From: a virus
Direction: 5' to 3' (one strand)
DNA: 25,208 nucleotides
IMG/VR virus record: IMGVR_UViG_3300049043_000001
Span: 1-25,208 of that record
In this document: positions 1 to 24,186 of the stretch, one piece after another
Numbering within the stretch: position 1 is the first letter of the stretch
How the letters are laid out: each line of letters opens with the position of its first letter
Made by a program: the position numbers and the translations under genes
The notes under the pieces: model-generated
Seen by the model: only the letters and a program-made list of their open reading frames with translations
Databases searched by the model: none
Told to the model about the DNA's origin: nothing

Positions 1-1102
1 ACAAATCGGCTCGAATCTGACACCATAACAAAGTTACACGTACTTGGGCAGCTAACATCTGTTTGGTATACGCCTGAGCTTGTACTGGACAGCAACGTTG
101 CTGGCGTTGAGAACAACAAATTACCTGCGCCGCTGTAAGTAGGAACCCACATGTACAACGCACCACCACGAGGATTGATGATTAGATAATCACCAAAGTT
201 TGTCTCTGACCATAAACGAAGTTGCTGCGGGATACCAAACGCGGCAGACTGTCCCCAGCCTGTAAACGTGCCAGCGTTATATACCGTAGTACCCAACGTA
301 TGAGATGTGGCTATTGTGCCATTGGCTCCGCGAGTAGCGCCTGTAAATGTGGTGGAAGTATTTCCAGCAGTAGGTCGCAAGCTCTTGGTCAATTAACAAC
401 GTGCCTGTAGCATTTGAGAATCCTGTTGTGGATGCGACAGTGATTGTCGTATTTGCCGCGCTTAACGCCAAAGATAATGTTGTCTGCGTAGTGCCAGATA
501 CAAAACCGCCCCACAAACCTGCGCCCCAGCCAGTAGCAAAACCATAAACGGCTACACCGACGTTGATCTGATAAGTGGCTGTAACTGTACCGCCGCCCGT
601 AGCAGACGATGCATGCGGCAACGGAAGATGAAATTGTGTAGGTATTGGTGGTAGCGCTAACAATCTGAAACTCACCATTCAGATTAAGACCGCCAACGGT
701 AGAAGCCAGAGAAGGTAACAAAGTCGCCTGCAATAGCGCCATGCCCCATGTCTGTCACAGTGACAGTCTTTCAGAGCCTGATGTCGTAGTAAACGGATTT
801 GTAAGTACATTAACATCACGTATAGGCGTAATGTCGTTATACGTTCCACCGTTCTCTACATAGTATTTAAGATTGGTGCCGAGACCTAACAGGTTATACC
901 CGCGCAAAGTCACCCAGTTCCATAACGAACGGGCTACGCCTTGATATGTATTGCTAGAGAGATAGGCTGCCAGCCGCCTAGCTTTTGAGGATAACCGGAG
1001 CGAAAACGTATCTTGTTAACACTCAAACCAACCGCCCTCGTTGGCAAGAGTGGTTCCTTCACGATTCAAACCTGGACGTAGTTGAAGTTTTTGTAAAGGC
1101 AC
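1..1102 (-). CDS. Large tail protein, 3' end outside window (frame breaks)
   Basis: GTG 1102 follows AGGAGTATAAC. The front reads MPLQKLQLRPGLNREGTTLA then NEGGWFE, next KIRFRSGYPQKLGGWQPIS, SSNTYQGVARSLWNWVTLRG and YNLLGLGTNLKYYVENGGTY. Later segments are VTATYQINVGVAVYGFATGW, GAGLWGGFVSGTTQTTLSLA, GTFTGWGQSAAFGIPQQLRL and GALYMWVPTYSGAGNLL, open to the left edge. The start R-PG-x-N-RE...NEGGW...D-KIRFR-x-G-x-P-x-K-GGW is that of a large conserved tail/stabilisation protein of podovirus-like phages, possibly related to P22 gp10 (hub plug). Family membership is recalled rather than tested. Confidence 0.7.
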
Positions 1103-1128
1103 GTTATACTCCTATGAAGGAGGATAGT
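1103..1128. promoter_or_regulatory. Divergent ribosome binding sites in 26-bp spacer
   Basis: The spacer between the tail gene (minus, GTG 1102) and the endonuclease (plus, ATG 1129) contains AGGAGT for the minus gene (plus-strand actcct at 1108-1113) and AAGGAGG for the plus gene (1117-1123). There is no room for a promoter, so each must be transcribed from further away, through the other gene. Confidence 0.65.
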
Positions 1129-1965
1129 ATGAAAACATATTTATACATTTGGTTCAAACCTGACTGGTCTCCATTTTATGTGGTATTGGCAAAACACGGA
1201 ATCGTTGGAATCCTGTTTGCGCCAAAATTAAAGACCGTAACGAAGCATGTATGCGCACCATAATTAAATATGGCGCAAAAAATATAAAAGTGCAACGCAT
1301 GTTCTTTCGAGAACTTGGGAGGATGCCTGTGCTGCTGAGCGGTCACTTATTGCTTGCTTTGGCCGCATAGATAACGGCGGATTACTATATAACCTTACCG
1401 ATGGCGGAGAAGGGAACATAAACCCACCAGCAGCAGAGCGAGAGGCTAAAAGATTGCGTTTACTTAACCCAAATAATCCACTACGAGGCAACACAAAAAA
1501 TTAAATACATCACCCAAGATCCATACAAATAGACTTGCCGCCTTACGCTCTCCAGAAGTACAAGCCAAGATATCTGCCGCCCTCAACGACCCTGAAAAGA
1601 AAGCTGCCAGACTGGCCAAACTACGGGCAACCATAGCCTCTCCCGAATACGAAGCAAAACTAGCCCTACGCCGCAAGCCTAAGCCTGCCAAGCGCACACC
1701 GGAAGAACTGCGGGAATACCGTAGGAAGCTGCTGACTGAGCGGAATAAAGACCCTGAATAGCAACGCAAAGCGAGTGGCTGCGCTCAGATCGTCATCACC
1801 GGATCAGTAGAGAGGCGTGAAACAATCTGCTGAGGGTACGAGCTGCCACAATGAAAACCCCCGAAGTTCAAAGCAAAACTGCGCCGTCCAAAAACCGCCG
1901 AACAGAAACAAAAAATATCAGAATCACAAAAACTGCGATGGGCTAAACGCAAATCCAAAGGCTGA
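1129..1965 (+). CDS. GIY-YIG-type homing endonuclease on the plus strand (frame breaks)
   Basis: The only supported plus-strand gene. ATG 1129 follows AAGGAGG at 1117-1123. It reads MKTYLYIWFKPDWSPFYV, then in the next frame IGKTRNRWNPVCAKIKDRNE, ACMRTIIKYGAKNIKVQRMF, next EDACAAERSLIACFGRIDNG and GLLYNLTDGGEGNINPPA. Y-IW...YVGIGK is the GIY-YIG core and E-x-x-LI-x-x-FGR...LTDGGEG its later motif. The rest is NUMOD3-like helices: RSPEVQAKISAALNDPEKKA, RLAKLRATIASPEYEAKL, KLRRPKTAEQKQKISESQKL, ending RWAKRKSKG. The span is an exact multiple of three. It lies between endolysin and a tail gene, as an insertion would. Confidence 0.78.
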
Positions 1966-1978
1966 TGTAGCGGCATTT

Positions 1979-2402
1979 TTATCCAATCTTTGCACCTGAT
2001 CGAAGCTGTGCAAGTGTTAAGCCGCCAGTGTATTGAAAGTGCGGGGACTCCTTAAACCTCTTCCACTCCCCAGCCCACTCCAGTCCTGCGGCTTTGCCTA
2101 GCTTCCCGACTTGCTGCCAAACTCTCGTCTTTAACATCCCAGGCGCGGTTTACCTGCAACTATGGGGACGACATCTACGGCGCATCTGTAGTTATGCCAA
2201 GACTGCCCAGCCTTAGCGTTTGTTACAATCTTCCCGGCGTTGTGCGACCCTGCGCATACAACGCCTCTTAGCTGAGCGTTATCCCTGTAGGTACTGGTTA
2301 CGTAGCAAGTCAATACCTGTGCTTTTTTGCCGCATCCAGAAAAGCTTCAACCCGCGTTTCAGCGGGCGGTATAAGATCATCCAGACTGCGGCTGTTAATC
2401 AT
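1979..2402 (-). CDS. Endolysin, peptidase M15-like (frame breaks)
   Basis: ATG 2402 gives MINSRSLDDLIPPAETRVEA then FLDAAKK. In a second frame VTSTYRDNAQ follows, then EALYAQGRTTPGK, IVTNAKAGQSWHNYRCAVDV and VPIVAGK, and after another break VWQQVGKLGKAAGLEWAGEW, KRFKESPHFQYTGGLTLAQL and RSGAKIG. The pattern S-x-HNY-x-x-A-x-DV and the later EW-x-x-F-x-x-SPHFQ supply the zinc ligands of M15/VanY-type L-Ala-D-Glu or D-Ala-D-Ala peptidases, which cleave peptidoglycan cross-bridges at lysis. About 140 aa, normal for single-domain M15 endolysins. Convergent with the plus-strand endonuclease, 13 bases apart. Confidence 0.85.
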
Positions 2403-2563
2403 CCCTTGGTAACAACACCAATCAAGCGAGCAATGCCCAATCCAGCAGAGACAATAGCGGTCTGCAACTCGGGAGCAATAGGCACACCAATCGCCGTCAG
2501 GAACAGGATAGCTCCACGCCATGTTGATGGCTCTTCCACTCTGTCAAGAACGTACTGTCTCAT
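2399..2563 (-). CDS. Holin candidate
   Basis: I start at ATG 2563 because it overlaps the previous stop (ATGA); a longer in-frame start at 2584 lies inside that gene. The 54-aa protein reads MRQYVLDRVEEPSTWRGAIL, FLTAIGVPIAPELQTAIVSA and GLGIARLIGVVTKG. It has two hydrophobic segments separated by a short loop and a basic end, the layout of small two-segment holins, which form membrane lesions that free the endolysin. It immediately precedes the endolysin, with an ATGA overlap. The lysis role is well supported by context. Confidence 0.72.
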   Translation of the reverse strand: MRQYVLDRVEEPSTWRGAILFLTAIGVPIAPELQTAIVSAGLGIARLIGVVTKG

Positions 2564-3797: not shown

Positions 3798-5392
3798 TTA
3801 TTGATTTAAAATGACGATTACCATACCGGAGCCGCCAGCCGCTCCTGCTCCAGCAGAATAACCACCAGCACCTCCACCACCACCGCACGAGCTGCTGCAG
3901 TTCCAGCACCACCATTTGAACCTCCCGTCCCACCACCTCCGCTACCGCCAGAGCCACCAGTTCCAGGGCTTTGAATACCACCACCTCCACCACCGCTATA
4001 TGTCACGCTACTGCCAGAAATGGATGATGCCGTACCTGCACCACCTGGGCCGCCAGCAGTAGAACCTGATGAAGTTCCACCAGCAGCAGATGCTCCACCA
4101 CCGCCACCATAGCTCGGAGAACCATTGCCAGCAGAACCGTTATTTCCTTGAGATGGAGAAAGATCAGGCGATCCAGTACCGCCAGCAGTAGCACCAGCAC
4201 CACCATAGCCACCACCACCAGAGCCACCGTTGCCGCCCGCACAATGCACCAGCACCAGCACCACCATAGCCACCACCAGCAGATGTTATTGTTGAAAATA
4301 CGGAATTCCCACCAAGACTGCAACTCCACCAGAACCGCCGCCTCCGCCAACAGTTACTGTATATTCTGTTTGAGCCGTGACAGATAAAGCAGAACCAGTA
4401 CGAAATTGATGACACCTCCACCACCACCTGAAGCACCAGGGCTTGCAGTTCCTGCTCCACCACCCCCGCCACCAGCCACCACTAGAATCGCACACTAGCC
4501 ACACCAGTAGGACATATCCATTTAGCCGATGGATTTAAACGTAAGACTGTTTGGTCACGACGGTGTAAGAAAGAACTACGATGCCAGAGCCGCCGCCACC
4601 GCCTGCGCCAGTTGGGGAACCACCACCGTTAAATGCTCCACCACCGCCACCGCCACCAAGATTGGTAGTTCCAGATGTTGCAGTTACATTACTGTCGTTT
4701 GCTCCTGCTCCACCGCCGCCACTACTTCTTGCGCCACCAATCGTAATACCTTGATCATAAAAAGCACTAGCTCCACCGCCGCCAGCATAAGTTACAGAAC
4801 TTCCGCTACGGCGATGCTCGACCATTTCCTCTTGATGCTGCCGTAGGTGTGCTTGTTGTTCAGGTTCCGCAGCAGATGCACCGCCACCACCGCCGCTACT
4901 TCCAGCATTCGCAGACCCACCGCCATTATTGCCCTGGCGACGGCGACGCGCGAGGAGATTTCCCGCACCCCCCGCGCCACCATATCCACCACCGCCTCCA
5001 GAACCGCCGGCTGCACCAGCAGCAGCAGCCCCTACACCAACCCCATTACCACCACCGGAAGCAGTAATAGTGTGGAATACAGAATCCACTCTGACCGTAA
5101 TCGCGGGGTCGGAGGCTCCAGAAGCGCCACCTGTACCGCCAGCACCAACCGGATGATCGCGGTAATCAGTACCAGCAGTAACACTAAATCCCGTACCTGT
5201 TCTAAAGCCACCAGCGCCGCCACCACTACCAAGTTGAATACCACCACCCCCGCCACCAGCCACCACTAGAATAATCCACCTGCGTAGCACCAGCAGGTGC
5301 AGTCCACTTACCAGAAGCGGTAAGGTTTGGACGACGGTGAAGCCTGTACTGGCAGCCGCCATCGCTTGCATAAGTTTTGTGAAAGCAAACAT
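3798..5392 (-). CDS. Glycine-rich tail adhesin-like protein (frame breaks)
   Basis: ATG 5392 opens MFAFTKLMQAMAAASTGF. Two modules follow. Each starts with a W-x-x-P-x-G segment (LTASGKWTAPAGATQVDY; LNPSAKWICPTGVASV) leading into LVVAGGGGGG and a long glycine-rich tract with Ser, Ala and Thr. The end is GYSAGAGAAGGSGMVIVILN then Q and TAA at 3798. Total about 530 aa. Poly-glycine tracts like these form polyglycine-II sandwiches in phage tip adhesins that bind host receptors. The frame is lost several times, often in GGT/GGC runs. A tail tip or fibre adhesin is the likely role. Confidence 0.65.
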
Positions 5393-6389
5393 TACTCATC
5401 CTCAGTTTGGATTAAAGTTCTGGCGCGTAGTTCCCATACCAGCTTCGTACCGTCTGCCGTGAATGTCAGTATGTCCATGACGGTTTGCGGGTCGGCAGTG
5501 ATCGTTGGGGCAGTATTTCGCAACCCACTTTACGCCAGTAAATGTCGCTGTATTTGTGCCTGCGCCAAGTCTCTTAAGAACAAAATACAACGATTTACCT
5601 GCCGTGTTGCTTGGGCATTGTAAAAATGCAACACGTAGCAGACAAGGTTAGCCGTAATGATGGTGCTGTTGGCTATATTCAGAGTGTAGGTACCGTCCGT
5701 ATTTACATACCCAGTTTGTAATGCCTTTGTGTACGCATTAACCTGCGGATTGTTAATCGTTGATGTGTTAATTGTTACGTTAGTCTCGAGTCAATCCATT
5801 TGACGTACCGCCATTGATGGTGACTGTGTTTAACGTAGTGCTACTTAACGTAGATGCGTTAGAAGTTATGTTGTTAATGTTGCCGCCGACAATACTTACG
5901 TTGCTAAGTATTAGCGCATTTGCTGTGCCGCCAGTAATAGTTACGTTGCCAAGCGTTGATGCAAACGTCACCAACATCAACAATATTTACCGCGTCATTA
6001 AAGACAATCGTGCTTCTGACCAGCAGGCAAAGCAAAATGTCGTACCTTGTTGGCGCAGGGTTTGTGCCAAGTCGTTGGAAATAATGATGGAGTTGGATAA
6101 CCCGTTTGTAATCGTAATACTTGCTTGGCTGCAGCAGGCACAAACAATGTCTGAACATTGGTAATGGTTCCTAGCAAATTCAAACGCAGCGCTCGGTGCT
6201 GTTTGCGAAGCATTGGTATCGGTTAATGCTATCGCCGCATTAGAGACTGGCAAAGGTCACATTGGATGTGCCGGTAATAGCTTGTTCGAAAGCTGTGCCG
6301 AGGTTGGTATTGGTAGTAGCTCCCCACGTACCCGCCTGATCGCCCGTTCCAATCAGTTCAATTTTTAGGCTGCTATATGTGCTTGCCAT
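5392..6389 (-). CDS. Tail fibre-like protein (frame breaks)
   Basis: ATG 6389 gives MASTYSSLKIELIGTGDQAG then TWGATTNTNLGTAFEQAITG. After a break near 6245 come NAAIALTDTNASQTA, ALRLNLLGTITNVQTLFVPA, TNGLSNSIIISND and IVFNDAVNIVDV. A Thr/Asn-rich repeat region follows (TLGNVTITGGTANALILSNV; NNITSNASTLSSTTLNTVTI). The end reads INNPQVNAYTKALQTGYVNT, SLYFVLKRLGAGTNTATFTG and LTFTADGTKLVWELRARTLI, stopping at 5392 with TAATG overlap. The opening GTG-x-x-x-GTWG-x-x-TN-x-NLGTA block is familiar from phage tail fibre proteins. About 330 aa, at least five breaks. Confidence 0.68.
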
Positions 6390-10977: not shown

Positions 10978-11417
10978 CACTTCCTCCGTTAACTACACGA
11001 AGAGCATAAGAACCTTTGTCATTCAAATAGTCAATAGCCTTTTTTAGCACATCCGTTGAATCTTTAGCCATGCCAAGCAAGGTATTGCAGTTTAAACAAA
11101 GTATCCCCTCTAAATGCCCCAGTTTCAGTGGTTATGGTCTATTGCATACATCCTGCGTCTATTTTCGTAGGTCATAAGGTCAGGCAACTCTTCCTTGCAT
11201 ACGGCACAGCAACCATTTTTTGTTGTTGCCAAGCTTCCATAAATTGCTGATGGGTAACGCCATACTTATACTTTAAATGCTGCTCAAGACGTTTTTTTGG
11301 CGACCTACTTTCCCAGCTATTCTTCTGCTTGTGTTTTTGACACGGTATACAAAGATACTGCCCTTTCCAGAATTGATCTAAATCTTTTTCGGTTTCACAA
11401 ACAGGGCAACGCTTCAT
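10970..11417 (-). CDS. Endonuclease VII-like protein (three frame breaks in second half)
   Basis: The N-terminus is intact: MKRCPVCETEKDLDQFWKGQ, with two Cys pairs (CPVC; CIPC) and a basic region. One base missing in the A-run near 11220 breaks the frame. The other frame reads NGCCAVCKEELPDLMTYENR, RRMYAIDHNH, and after two more corrections ETGAFRGILCLNCNTLLGMA and a helix to TGA at 10970. This is the CxxC, D-H-x-H, CxxC core of the endonuclease VII family. Net +1 base fits one deletion and two insertions. It is the second such nuclease in the window and is overlapped at both ends by neighbours, so it is integrated in the operon. Confidence 0.82.
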
Positions 11418-13433: not shown

Positions 13434-13676
13434 TTATCCTTTTTGCGAAATAAGTTGATCTATCTTTGCTTCAAGTTTGTTGAAGCGCTGATCTATGTGG
13501 TCAGTGATACGCTCAACTTCGGCGTTGGTTACGTTATCACGAGCAATCTCTTCACGAGTTTTATTCAACAATATAGTGATGCGAGAAAGCTCATTGAACT
13601 TTTCGTGCGCCACATAAGCAAAAAGCCCAGTAAATAGACTTAATACAGTCATCCATAGGCCACTCATATCTAACAT
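13434..13676 (-). CDS. Membrane-anchored coiled-coil protein, holin-like candidate
   Basis: The 80-aa protein (or 77 aa from the second ATG at 13667, MSGLWMTVLSLF) has one N-terminal membrane segment, LWMTVLSLFTGLFAYVA, followed by a long charged helix with heptad pattern (KLEAKIDQLISQKG at the end). This architecture recalls XhlA-type lysis accessory proteins and small phage proteins near holins. The start overlaps the endonuclease VII stop. A lysis or membrane function is inferred; no lysis gene is adjacent, since the endolysin is 11 kb away. Confidence 0.65.
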   Translation of the reverse strand: MLDMSGLWMTVLSLFTGLFAYVAHEKFNELSRITILLNKTREEIARDNVTNAEVERITDHIDQRFNKLEAKIDQLISQKG

Positions 13677-14089
13677 TTTTCAACCTCATTTAAATACTTA
13701 TGCCACTTTGGACTATCAACTGATGCATATAAATATTGTGCTGCAAATTCTAAAAGCATCGGATCATCCCTAAAATGGCCCAAACCACGATTGCAATGAT
13801 TGCACAATAAACCGCGAATATTCCCAGTTTTGTGACTATGATCCACAACAAGTTTTTCTTGTGATCCACAAATAACGCATTGCGTAACAGTAGCTTTTAA
13901 TTCTTTCAAAGCTTTGTCTGAACAGTACATTCCTAAACTTACCACGGTTAATCCCATTTCTATATGTAGCTCCTGCATTCCCTGCACCAACTATCTAAGC
14001 CACTTTCTTTTCTTGTTATGCGAAGGGAAGATACTCAGCCTGAAGCTGGTTTTTTCTGTTTTGCATTTAGTACAAGTCAGCATTTCCAT
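13670..14089 (-). CDS. Endonuclease VII-like protein (frame breaks in first third)
   Basis: The C-terminal 70 residues are intact: CVICGSQEKLVVDHSHKTGN then IRGLLCNHCNRGLGHFRDDP, the HNH/zinc core of the recombination endonuclease VII family (T4 gp49 type), with Cys pairs and the D-H-S-H active-site segment. Upstream, frames must be joined: MLTCTKCKTEKTSF gives a first Cys pair, WCRECR a second, and INRGKFRNVL then SDKALKEL continue to the core. ATG at 14083 or 14089 overlaps the DUF6321 stop. Endonuclease VII resolves branched DNA during packaging; free-standing copies in phages are often mobile. The family call is secure, the role less so. Confidence 0.82.
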
Positions 14090-15232: not shown

Positions 15233-15944
15233 CTATTGCTGGGCGCAGGTAAATTTCCAACCAGTATAAGGTCCGCGAGTTAATGGTTTCCCAGACTTTA
15301 ATGCACGGTTTATGGTGGGAGGTTTAAGACTTAACGCAGCCCGTAACTCAGCTATGCTTCGGTACAAAGTATCGCCTGTAGGCCCGTTAGCTAATACAGG
15401 GCGGCTTACTTTTGCTCCATGATCTTGTACGTTTTTTGCCATACCAATAGTTACCTTCGCCAGATAGGGTGGCGGATATTTTGGCACGCACCTCTGCAGA
15501 CTTTGGTTTGCCAATAAGATGCGCAGTTTTCTGTTTATTTGTTTCCTCATCAAACTTCCTGCCTTTGGAAAGAAACCCCAATTTTTTCTTTTGCCTCATC
15601 AGTATGCTTGTACCCCCAAGTCGGACTAAGTTCCCCTCCCATCCCAATCATCGGAGCTGTGGCATCTATGCCTAAGTTGTAGCAATACTCCTTACCAACA
15701 TGTTCTCTGCCAGACATTTTCAACGGACAGCAAATCAGCATCATCTGGAAGTTCTTCCACAACCACGAATACAAATGCCTGCTCACCGTACTTTACCCAA
15801 GCAGCTTGTAGATGCCGGTTGTTGTGCCTGCCATTACGCAATTCAGAAATGCCGCGTCTTGCGTCGCTTCAAGTACCACTGTGCTTCGCAACGTTAAACT
15901 TGTTGCTTCACCACGTCTGATTGTTTGTAGATTCCTCGCGCCAT
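15233..15944 (-). CDS. GIY-YIG homing endonuclease with NUMOD-type C-terminus (several frame breaks)
   Basis: Starts at ATG 15944 after AAAGGAGGG. Pieces in different frames assemble into one protein of roughly 235 aa. MARGIYK supplies the GIY motif. Then come RKTRHF, SELRNGRHNNRHLQAAWVKY and GEQAFVFVVVEELP (the conserved helix and strand of GIY-YIG nucleases). NUMOD3-like elements follow: WGYKHTDEAKEK, KGRKFDEETNKQKTAHLIGK and KSAEVRAKISATLSGEGN. The C-terminal helix-turn-helix reads YRSIAELRAALSLKPPTINR, ending GWKFTCAQQ. The family cuts intron- or gene-free alleles and promotes its own spread. It stands alone between the capsid terminator and a new promoter, as expected for an insertion. 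At least four breaks are needed; true decay cannot be excluded. Confidence 0.8.
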
Positions 15945-16064: not shown

Positions 16065-16974
16065 TTAAGCGCCTTGTGAACCAAACATCCCGAGCGGATC
16101 CGACCACCCAAAGCTGTAGCGCTCACGGGATTTGTAACGCACGTTCCCTGTATCGAAATCTCCGTCCATCGAATTTTGCAAGTGGTGTACGAACAAAGTG
16201 CTTCATGCCGTTTGGAACGTCGGTAGTCAAATACCAGCCGTTTACGTCGGTCAAGAAGTGGTTGATCGTATAGCCTTCAGGGATTGAACCGTTGTTCTTC
16301 AATGCGTTGATATCGTTGTCGTTAGTACCAACACGGAGGCTAGTTTCTAACAGACGGGTAGCAACGAACTGGAGAGCTGAAGGAACAATCAGCTTACGTG
16401 GCTTAGCAGCGATCAACAGATCACGTTCATCTGTCCAAGCGGCGATTTGAATAACTGCGTTTTCCAACGAAGTTTCATTCAAGTCAGCTCGAGTAGATGG
16501 TGTGTTGCTGTTAGTGCCGCCGGAGACCAAAGGATGTGCTGTCGAGAACAGAGCAACGCCGTCGCCACCAGAGTAGCTGGCAGAGAAACCGTTGTTGATA
16601 ACAGCAGCAGCTTTGACCTGCTTGGTGTACGACATAGCACGAGCCAGAGCCTTGGTGTAACGAGCCGACAGCGAGTCGTACAAGTTGTCCTCGATAGCCT
16701 CTTCGGTCAGCGAGAAACCAAGTGCAATAGTTTCGTGGTTGTATCGTGCTGTCCAAGCTTCTTGGCCGTTGTCATAACGAATGGCTGAGCCTTCATTCTT
16801 GACAGGTGCGGCTGAGAAACCAGACAGTTTTGTTTCTTCTTCGAACGAACGCTCGGAGGTCTCTGTTTCGTAGATCTCTTTGTGTTCTTCGCCGTAACGA
16901 GCATACTCCAAACCGAACAAAGCGTTCAGGCCAGGCAGCAGCTCTTTCAGTAGTTGTGCGCGTGAAATAGCCAT
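16065..16974 (-). CDS. Major capsid protein (C-terminal frame break near 16175)
   Basis: The reconstructed protein is 302 aa. It starts MAISRAQLLKELLPGLNALF after an AAGGAG ribosome site. The middle contains ALFSTAHPLVSGGTNSN, a segment type common in HK97-fold major capsid proteins, and ends of the fold such as KPRKLIVPSALQFVATRLLE. It lies downstream of scaffold and decoration genes and is followed by a strong terminator, as capsid genes often are. The uncorrected frame ends at 16123. An extra A in the AAAA run (16174-16177) breaks it: LAKFDGRRF versus LANSMDGDFDTGNVRYKSRE, which continues to SDPLGMFGSQGA and TAA at 16065. I regard the longer version as the true protein. Confidence 0.85.
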
Positions 16975-19067: not shown

Positions 19068-19616
19068 TTAACAGTCAAACCGATTGCCTTTGGATCGGTT
19101 CTCCCGTCGTGACAACACCTGAAGATTCTCTGGCACATGTAATCCAGATACTTTTTTGCCATTTAGTGGGATTTTGTGGTCCACCTCAAAGCCTTTAAAT
19201 ATCTGACAAAACATATACATGCCATCGATTTCCGCTTGGTGTCCGGCTGTTAATTGCATTTGATCCCTTATACGTCCTTGCCTGCGGCGTACGCGCTCAA
19301 TCTCGCGGGCACTGTTAGCTGCGTAGTTTTTCCTACGCAATTCCAACCAATGTTCTTTGTTCTGGTTTTGCCAGTCCATAGTCTTTTTGGTGTAGTACTC
19401 ACGATTTTTCTTCATTGAAGCCAAAGATCTGGCATTACAGATTTCTCTGTTTGCCTCTCTGTATCTATCAACGACGGTTTTGCGCGTAAGGCTGTTACGT
19501 TGCATATCTGCTTTGCACACTTTGCAATAAACTTGATAGCCAGTAGCAGCCCTCCGGTCTTTATGAAACTCGGATACTGGTTTCTCAACCTTGCAATGTG
19601 GGCAAAATTTATGCAC
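19068..19616 (-). CDS. HNH endonuclease with N-terminal zinc finger
   Basis: This 182-aa protein starts with GTG, overlapping the previous TAA by 8 bases. The N-terminus has two Cys pairs (CPHC, residues 5-8; CKVC, 31-34), a likely zinc finger. A basic helical linker follows. The C-terminal HNH core reads FEVDHKIPLNG (143-153) and HVPENLQVLSRRENRSKGNR (160-179), giving the D-H pair, the central Asn and the last basic helix. Such free-standing HNH enzymes nick or cut DNA and often behave as homing endonucleases or aid packaging. It is intact and interrupts the head genes between the GroES-like protein and the scaffold, which suggests a mobile insertion, although the overlap with its upstream neighbour indicates it is settled in the operon. 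Confidence 0.88.
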   Translation of the reverse strand: MHKFCPHCKVEKPVSEFHKDRRAATGYQVYCKVCKADMQRNSLTRKTVVDRYREANREICNARSLASMKKNREYYTKKTMDWQNQNKEHWLELRRKNYAANSAREIERVRRRQGRIRDQMQLTAGHQAEIDGMYMFCQIFKGFEVDHKIPLNGKKVSGLHVPENLQVLSRRENRSKGNRFDC

Positions 19617-22710: not shown

Positions 22711-24186
22711 TTAGTAGTAAACGCGCTTGCGACGGAAGCCGATATCATCGTCCTCTTCGTCGGAATCAAGCCGCAAAAATCCGCCCTGCCGAAATCGCAT
22801 CAACGCTTGTACCGTGCTATCTACCAAGTCATCGTGTTCTGCGTTCGGAAACCTTGCCATCTCCTCGATAACCTCGTCAGCCCAACGGGTTTCGGGTGCC
22901 CACACTTTACCGGATGAGAATAAGTCCGTCACGCTGTTCAAACGCACGAACTTATCGTTACCTCGCGTCGGTGTATAGTCCTGAACGTACACACCCATGC
23001 GTCTTAACTCAAATATCAACGGCGCGCCCGCAGCTTTTGCTTCAATAATGCAGGCATCCGGCTGCCATTCGTCGTACATCTCTTTAGCTTTTGCCTTTAA
23101 CTCGGGAAACTCCAGCTTATCCTTCCACGCATCCAGCAAAATGATGTTTACATCGCTCTCATTCTCGTCTTTGTGGAACACACCCCATGTTGTACACGCA
23201 GAATAGTCAGCCCGCTGGCTCTTTGTGAACGCAGTATCCCAACTTTGGATGATAAATTCGCACGGAGGCGCTCTATCTCCCTCCCAACGCTTCCACCAAT
23301 CACGTTTTACCAGCGCACCTTCCTCACCTGTAGGCTGTTGCTGGTACTGAGCGTTCCATTTATAGGGTGGAAGTTCTTCCTTTAGCGCTGCAAGTTCTTC
23401 CAGCGGCCAGAATTCAGGCCAAAGTGAGTTACCGGACGGCAAAATCGCTGGCAGTTCTATCACTTCCCAGTCAGATGAGTCACTTTTCAACACCTTGCCG
23501 GTCAAATCCTTATCCGACCAGCGTGTCATCACAATAATAATCGCCCCGCCTGGCTGTAAACGCTGCCGTGGACCAGATGTGTACCACTCGTACACGCTGT
23601 CAAACACGGTTGGATCACCCTGCGCTAGCTTTGCTTCTTGTTCTGAATGCGGGTCATCTATTATCAGTAGGTCTGCACCCTTACCAGTAACAGTACCGCC
23701 TACACCGATAGCGAAATAATCCCCGCCGTGGCTAGTAGCCCAGCGTCCAGCCGCTTTAGAGTCCACCCGCAACCCCACGCCAGGAAAGATTTTCCCGTAT
23801 TGCTCACTATCTACTAAGTTCCTAACCTTCCGTCCAAACCCCACCGCCAGTTCTGCCGTGTTAGACGTTTGAATAACCTTCTTATTAGGGTAATTCCCCA
23901 AGAACCACGCCGGCAACAGATAAGACGCGAACTCTGATTTTGTATGTCGCGGCGGCATATTAATAATCAGCCGCTTTAACTTACCCTGTGCTATTTCCTC
24001 AAACTTCTTAGCCATAAGGGCGTGATGTCTGCCATGTATAAATCCCGGCCACATCTCTTTCACGAATGCCATGAACGACTTCTGAGCTTTCTCGCGGGTA
24101 ACAGCGTCCTTATACTGGCCCACTTGTTCCAGTAACTTCTCCTGCTCCGCCGCCGGAAGCTTAGATATCAGCTCACTTAAGTCCAC
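22711..24186 (-). CDS. terL: Terminase large subunit
   Basis: The 491-aa protein is intact and has the full ATPase plus nuclease layout of the large terminase, which drives DNA into the prohead and cuts it. The Walker A-like motif is MPPRHTKS (residues 77-84; the family commonly has PPRHGKS). Walker B is LLIIDD (173-178) and the coupling motif is MTRW (220-223). The C-terminal RNase H-like nuclease shows SWDTAF (315-320), the IEAKAAG segment (381-387) and HDDLVDS (451-457), which together supply the acidic metal ligands. It starts with ATG inside the end of the 68-aa gene and ends 8 bases before the portal start. Length and motif order are normal for the Terminase_6/Terminase_6C family. It is one of the few long genes here without a frame break. 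Confidence 0.96.
   Translation of the reverse strand: MDLSELISKLPAAEQEKLLEQVGQYKDAVTREKAQKSFMAFVKEMWPGFIHGRHHALMAKKFEEIAQGKLKRLIINMPPRHTKSEFASYLLPAWFLGNYPNKKVIQTSNTAELAVGFGRKVRNLVDSEQYGKIFPGVGLRVDSKAAGRWATSHGGDYFAIGVGGTVTGKGADLLIIDDPHSEQEAKLAQGDPTVFDSVYEWYTSGPRQRLQPGGAIIIVMTRWSDKDLTGKVLKSDSSDWEVIELPAILPSGNSLWPEFWPLEELAALKEELPPYKWNAQYQQQPTGEEGALVKRDWWKRWEGDRAPPCEFIIQSWDTAFTKSQRADYSACTTWGVFHKDENESDVNIILLDAWKDKLEFPELKAKAKEMYDEWQPDACIIEAKAAGAPLIFELRRMGVYVQDYTPTRGNDKFVRLNSVTDLFSSGKVWAPETRWADEVIEEMARFPNAEHDDLVDSTVQALMRFRQGGFLRLDSDEEDDDIGFRRKRVYY

Follow-up and report, generated by a model that had tools for sequence, protein, structure and literature searches.

Intronless homing and free-standing GIY-YIG genes are well known from bacteriophage T4 (PMC2988022). 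Among the free-standing genes, T4 segD is transcribed in the direction opposite to the adjacent essential virion genes 23 and 24, and hairpins that hide the ribosome-binding site are known for I-TevI, segB and mobE (PMC2988022). Homing endonuclease genes (HEGs) have also been described at the boundaries of phage genetic exchange (Barth et al. 2023, PMC10448857).

The window analysed here is a virus record of 25,208 bases with its genes on the minus strand. One plus-strand gene in it is, with high likelihood, a free-standing GIY-YIG HEG of the T4 Seg type, lying antisense in the joint between a lysis gene and a virion gene and spreading by homing. Like T4 SegF and SegA, it has a GIY-YIG core and a basic, repeat-rich C-terminus, and stands free between conserved phage genes; unlike SegF and SegA, whose genes share the strand of their neighbours, it is antisense and meets one neighbour in a 26-bp head-to-head junction. 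In this respect it resembles SegD, which is likewise encoded antisense beside virion genes, a likeness of gene arrangement. No promoter has been found for segD, whereas a promoter-like element and a Shine-Dalgarno site are kept near the start of the window HEG. The closest annotated phage proteins are the ‘Seg-like homing endonucleases’ of the Rhizobium phages RHph_X2_25 and RHph_TM3_3_14B (31-35% identity, about 150 aa), but their genes lie on the strand of their neighbours, at other sites, and encode a C-terminal AP2 domain, unlike the window HEG. As in the systems of Barth et al. (2023, PMC10448857), the nuclease gene lies at a boundary where adjacent modules vary between phages; there, however, HEG-islands with cargo are described, whereas the window has a single antisense gene between lysis cassette and virion gene.

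The initial annotation had placed a hidden gene between an endolysin and a ‘tail gene’, and its coordinates, its AAGGAGG site and the distances of 13 and 26 bases to the neighbours all proved exact. The start codon ATG occupies 1129-1131 and the stop codon TGA 1963-1965; the minus-strand endolysin stop at 1981-1979 leaves 13 bases (1966-1978) on one side, and the minus-strand GTG start of the virion gene at 1102-1100 leaves 26 bases (1103-1128) on the other. The plus-strand translation, which spans several frames, begins MKTYLYIWFKPDWSPFYV and finishes ...QKLRWAKRKSKG. The fit between two genes is thus borne out, but the name ‘tail gene’ is not: this neighbour matches phrog_3287, its counterpart in phage DSL-LC04 is annotated ‘stabilization protein’, and it is better named a stabilization/virion protein. 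When the region was searched at the nucleotide level, no phage record matched it. The features of the locus, with one distant reference gene, are as follows.

1..1102, minus strand: virion (stabilization-like) gene, 5' part, frame-broken.
1082..1110, plus strand: promoter-like TTGAAG-N17-TATACT, ending 18 bases before the HEG start.
1092..1102, minus strand: functional virion-gene start, GTGCCTTTACA, one copy of an 11-nt direct repeat.
1103..1128, no strand assigned: head-to-head junction of 26 bp, with the HEG Shine-Dalgarno site, the second promoter-like hexamer and the virion-gene Shine-Dalgarno site.
1109..1113, minus strand: Shine-Dalgarno AGGAG of the virion gene, supplied by the insert.
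1117..1123, plus strand: Shine-Dalgarno AAGGAGG of the HEG, also kept in relatives.
1129..1965, plus strand: GIY-YIG HEG, about 278 codons, its frame broken by six indels of 1-2 nt.
1966..1976, minus strand: remnant of the ancestral virion-gene start, ATGCCGCTACA, the other copy of the 11-nt repeat, adjoining the HEG stop.
1977..1981, minus strand: endolysin stop TAA and 2-nt joint, retained from the empty site.
1979..2430, minus strand: endolysin, frame-broken; its close relative, in L017, is a peptidase of the Peptidase_M15_4/VanY type.
22711-24186: terminase large subunit, a full open frame in the window about 20 kb from the HEG.

The protein matches PHROG 314 (homing endonuclease) with an E-value of 4e-10, and its relative in the contig L002 does so with 9e-15. 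The initial annotation had called it GIY-YIG/NUMOD3-like and had advised a GIY-YIG profile search. The Pfam cut-off was missed in this search: neither the window protein nor its close relatives match PF01541, and a distant relative (L148) reaches 22.4 bits against a cut-off of 22.6, although this gathering score belongs to a single model and does not define the GIY-YIG superfamily. Matches were nevertheless obtained with a profile built from nine HEG homologues, distant ones included, which found the GIY-YIG protein 9u75 (E 2.9e-5) and the UvrC GIY-YIG domain (E 0.003) in the PDB; the close relatives alone gave no match there, the distant homologues being required in the profile. By hhalign the HEG profile matches T4 SegF (E 1.1e-7) and T4 SegA (E 7.6e-7). 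Tyr6, Tyr17, Gly19, Gly21, Glu70 and Asn88 are invariant in all nine homologues and the predicted secondary-structure order is E-E-H-E-H; these two tyrosines, Gly-x-Gly, glutamate and asparagine on a beta-beta-alpha-beta-alpha core place the protein in the GIY-YIG superfamily. A Foldseek match to the UvrC GIY-YIG domain is weak (probability 0.87, TMt 0.62), on a model of modest mean pLDDT (69). The second half of the initial name does not stand: NUMOD3 scores 10.8 bits in the window protein against a cut-off of 20.4, the relatives also fall below it, and the HEG is not classed as a NUMOD3-bearing endonuclease. The gene is free-standing, as the window has no Rfam match, group I introns included, and the flanking genes keep their own start and stop. 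No relatives of the HEG were found in bacterial and archaeal genomes.

A search of viral contigs returned six relatives that align with the entire query at 77-80% identity. Five of them are intact, with 277-279 codons from the matching ATG, and are 78-80% identical to the window HEG. Between pairs of intact HEGs, substitutions concentrate at plus-strand third positions and the plus-frame dN/dS is 0.09-0.27. The plus frame is under purifying selection, and the hidden gene antisense to its neighbours is a real one. It is also frame-broken, as had been noted: comparison with three intact relatives shows six indels that change its frame (7.2 per kb). These might mark a dead HEG, a pseudogene that has been decaying through real frameshifts since its target became fixed, an outcome expected from the homing cycle, and the L007 copy, with five frame-changing indels (6.0 per kb against 1.6 in the L007 virion gene), would fit such decay. 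In the window, however, the flanking virion gene (5.4 frameshift indels per kb) and endolysin (13.6 per kb), both presumably needed, are equally broken, five of the six close contigs carry an intact HEG, and the catalytic residues are still legible across the broken frames. A dead gene is improbable on this balance. Breaks that are as dense in genes on which the phage should depend are explained more simply by sequence error, and they are probably errors rather than decay.

For comparison, 80 loci with the start of the virion gene were fetched; setting aside the window and its six relatives, those among them that have this gene lack the HEG. Most empty alleles have just 2 nt between the stop of the lysis gene and the start of the virion gene, as in L017 (GGATAAAA-ATGCCATTACAG), and in phage DSL-LC04 holin, M15A peptidase and stabilization protein are directly successive. 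The insertion was initially thought to have used the intergenic gap. Since the two genes are usually 2 nt apart in empty relatives, there was no such gap to use, and the bases on either side of the HEG were brought in with the insertion or arose from it.

Comparison with relatives lacking the insert, which had also been advised, defined the exact boundaries: an 11-nt remnant and a duplicated start. In the window, as in L003 and L004, ATGCC(GC/AT)TACA comes after the endolysin stop and the 2-nt joint, and the HEG stop codon adjoins it directly. L003 and L004 are identical to empty alleles up to the end of the 11-nt remnant, where they run into the HEG, although their lysis gene encodes a GH24-type phage lysozyme unrelated to the peptidase of the window. 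The 13-base spacer is thus the 2-nt joint plus the 11-nt remnant of the virion-gene start. This remnant on one side and the repeated start (as GTG) on the other place the insert directly behind base 11 of the ancestral virion gene. The 26-bp stretch with its two facing Shine-Dalgarno sites arrived with the insert, and its signature, AGGAGTATAAN-GTGCC, occurs in occupied alleles only in the scan of viral contigs. In those occupied alleles whose lysis gene encodes an M15_3 peptidase, the end of the HEG instead runs about 12 nt into that gene, indicating that the junction was remodelled there. One empty allele, L054, has a 39-nt spacer at 5953-6001 together with a GTG start, AGGAG and Leu12 as in occupied alleles; this spacer is possibly the scar of a lost HEG.

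The junction-signature scan yielded seven contigs, all seven occupied, of which one, L148, was new. Its HEG lies antisense at the same site and is only 32% identical to the subfamily of the window. A search with the L148 gene found 19 loci; in 18, the contig of L148 among them, the HEG stands head-to-head with the same virion gene. Antisense occupation of this site is therefore seen in 24 contigs besides the window, in two HEG subfamilies about 32% identical, which contradicts the initial suggestion of a recent insertion. The lysis genes beside occupied alleles belong to five families (M15_3, phage lysozyme GH24, the M15_4/VanY type, GH19 and GH108). One and the same site is thus occupied in some related phages and empty in others, and the closest virion-gene relative of the window, L078 (76% identical), is empty.

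On the virion-gene tree, explaining where the HEG is present takes five changes, each of them imposed by branches with good support. Between L003 and L006, whose lysis genes are unrelated, dS is 0.59 for the HEG and about 2.3 for the virion gene. In the L148 subfamily, HEG proteins are up to 82% identical in amino acids where virion proteins are 42% identical; over all pairs the correlation between HEG and virion-protein identity is not significant (Spearman 0.13, p 0.18). As the histories of HEG and virion gene disagree, the HEG has spread horizontally, independent of the genes that flank it. It is an old, mobile occupant of a single lysis/virion joint, and as a family it is not recent.

A second reading of the same pattern is that the antisense gene has been domesticated, being kept for a benefit to the phage, such as the virion-gene Shine-Dalgarno site or antisense control of lysis, and not by homing. 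The constancy of site and orientation over the 24 other contigs, the supply of the virion-gene Shine-Dalgarno site by the insert and the purifying selection on the HEG would all agree with domestication. It sits poorly, however, with the absence of the HEG from most close relatives and with the disagreement between HEG and virion-gene histories, and little credence is given to it. That the minus strand itself carries the real gene over 1129-1965 can be dismissed almost outright: although each of the five intact relatives has an open frame of 222-224 aa there, 1-20% of synonymous shuffles give one as long, so that it is at most mildly longer than expected, its low apparent dN/dS follows from third positions that face those of the selected plus frame, and the GIY-YIG homology lies in the plus product. 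The antisense frame was rejected as a gene on these grounds, and no gene is better supported over these bases than the plus-strand HEG.

Between L003 and L004, dS is 0.23 in the HEG against 0.04 and 0.01 in the flanking genes, as if HEG alleles had been replaced in place. In the subfamily of the window, a virion gene that starts with GTG and encodes Leu12 tends to accompany the HEG, Leu12 being found in six of the seven occupied alleles and in one other row. Leu12 was considered as a mark of immunity or co-conversion and rejected, since it offers five independent pairs, too few to reach 0.05, and does not hold throughout the second subfamily. A co-conversion tract over the 60 nt at the beginning of the virion gene was likewise rejected, as the excess of identity between occupied alleles is only a trend that 298 of 3000 random sets reach.

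The element TTGAAG-N17-TATACT may serve as the promoter of the HEG. TATACT is identical in all seven alleles of the window subfamily; the first hexamer is a weak, partial match, and promoter-like matches are no more numerous in the region than chance would give. The two facing Shine-Dalgarno sites fold into a hairpin on both strands. A hairpin hiding the ribosome-binding site in the style of I-TevI was rejected, because in no allele does the fold significantly outdo shuffles that keep the Shine-Dalgarno arms. The hairpin follows from two such sites facing each other and is no evidence of regulation.

Intronless homing like that of SegF or SegD is the most likely explanation of the locus. Expression of the HEG would depend on a promoter of its own or on read-through. 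In mixed infections its product would cut the empty alleles of HEG-free phages, and the break would most likely fall close to the 5' end of the virion gene, a flank that every occupied allele shares. Repair of the break would then copy in the HEG together with flanking DNA. The insertion after the 11th base has left the virion-gene start duplicated and added a new Shine-Dalgarno site, so that both flanking genes stay whole. It is also conceivable, though rather doubtful, that the HEG is a long-lived boundary element, whose cutting near the virion start drives repeated replacement of the lysis cassette while its junction preserves virion expression. If this were true, a selfish gene would decide where these phages shuffle their lysis module.

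The locus provides a natural series at one homing site, in which alleles are empty, occupied or possibly scarred, the junction is resolved to the base and the lysis neighbours vary. Such a series makes it directly testable whether the HEG drives lysis-cassette exchange or has only settled where exchange takes place. The locus further illustrates a way for an antisense HEG to occupy a 2-nt joint between needed genes with neither being broken, through a duplicated start codon and an added ribosome-binding site. Two of its traits are less usual: the antisense site stays constant in both diverged subfamilies, and the entry by duplication of a start codon is exact to the base.

Endonuclease genes are not confined to this joint. 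The 25 kb window has five, the HEG at 1129-1965 included, and the others are all on the minus strand. A frame-broken endonuclease gene at 15233-15786, with a NUMOD3 match of 35.7 bits (above the Pfam cut-off), adjoins a coat-like gene at 16123-16974; 13670-13990 encodes a free-standing endonuclease VII (Pfam E 5e-18); and 19068-19616 and 11172-11417 are two endonuclease VII/HNH-like genes by PHROG. Among the relatives, L160 has a further GIY-YIG/NUMOD3 gene (5139-5831, minus strand) about 450 nt beyond its antisense HEG, with a sub-threshold match to the I-TevI DNA-binding domain, and in L002 an HNH_3 endonuclease gene (5836-6303, minus strand) lies between two genes that adjoin each other in relatives.
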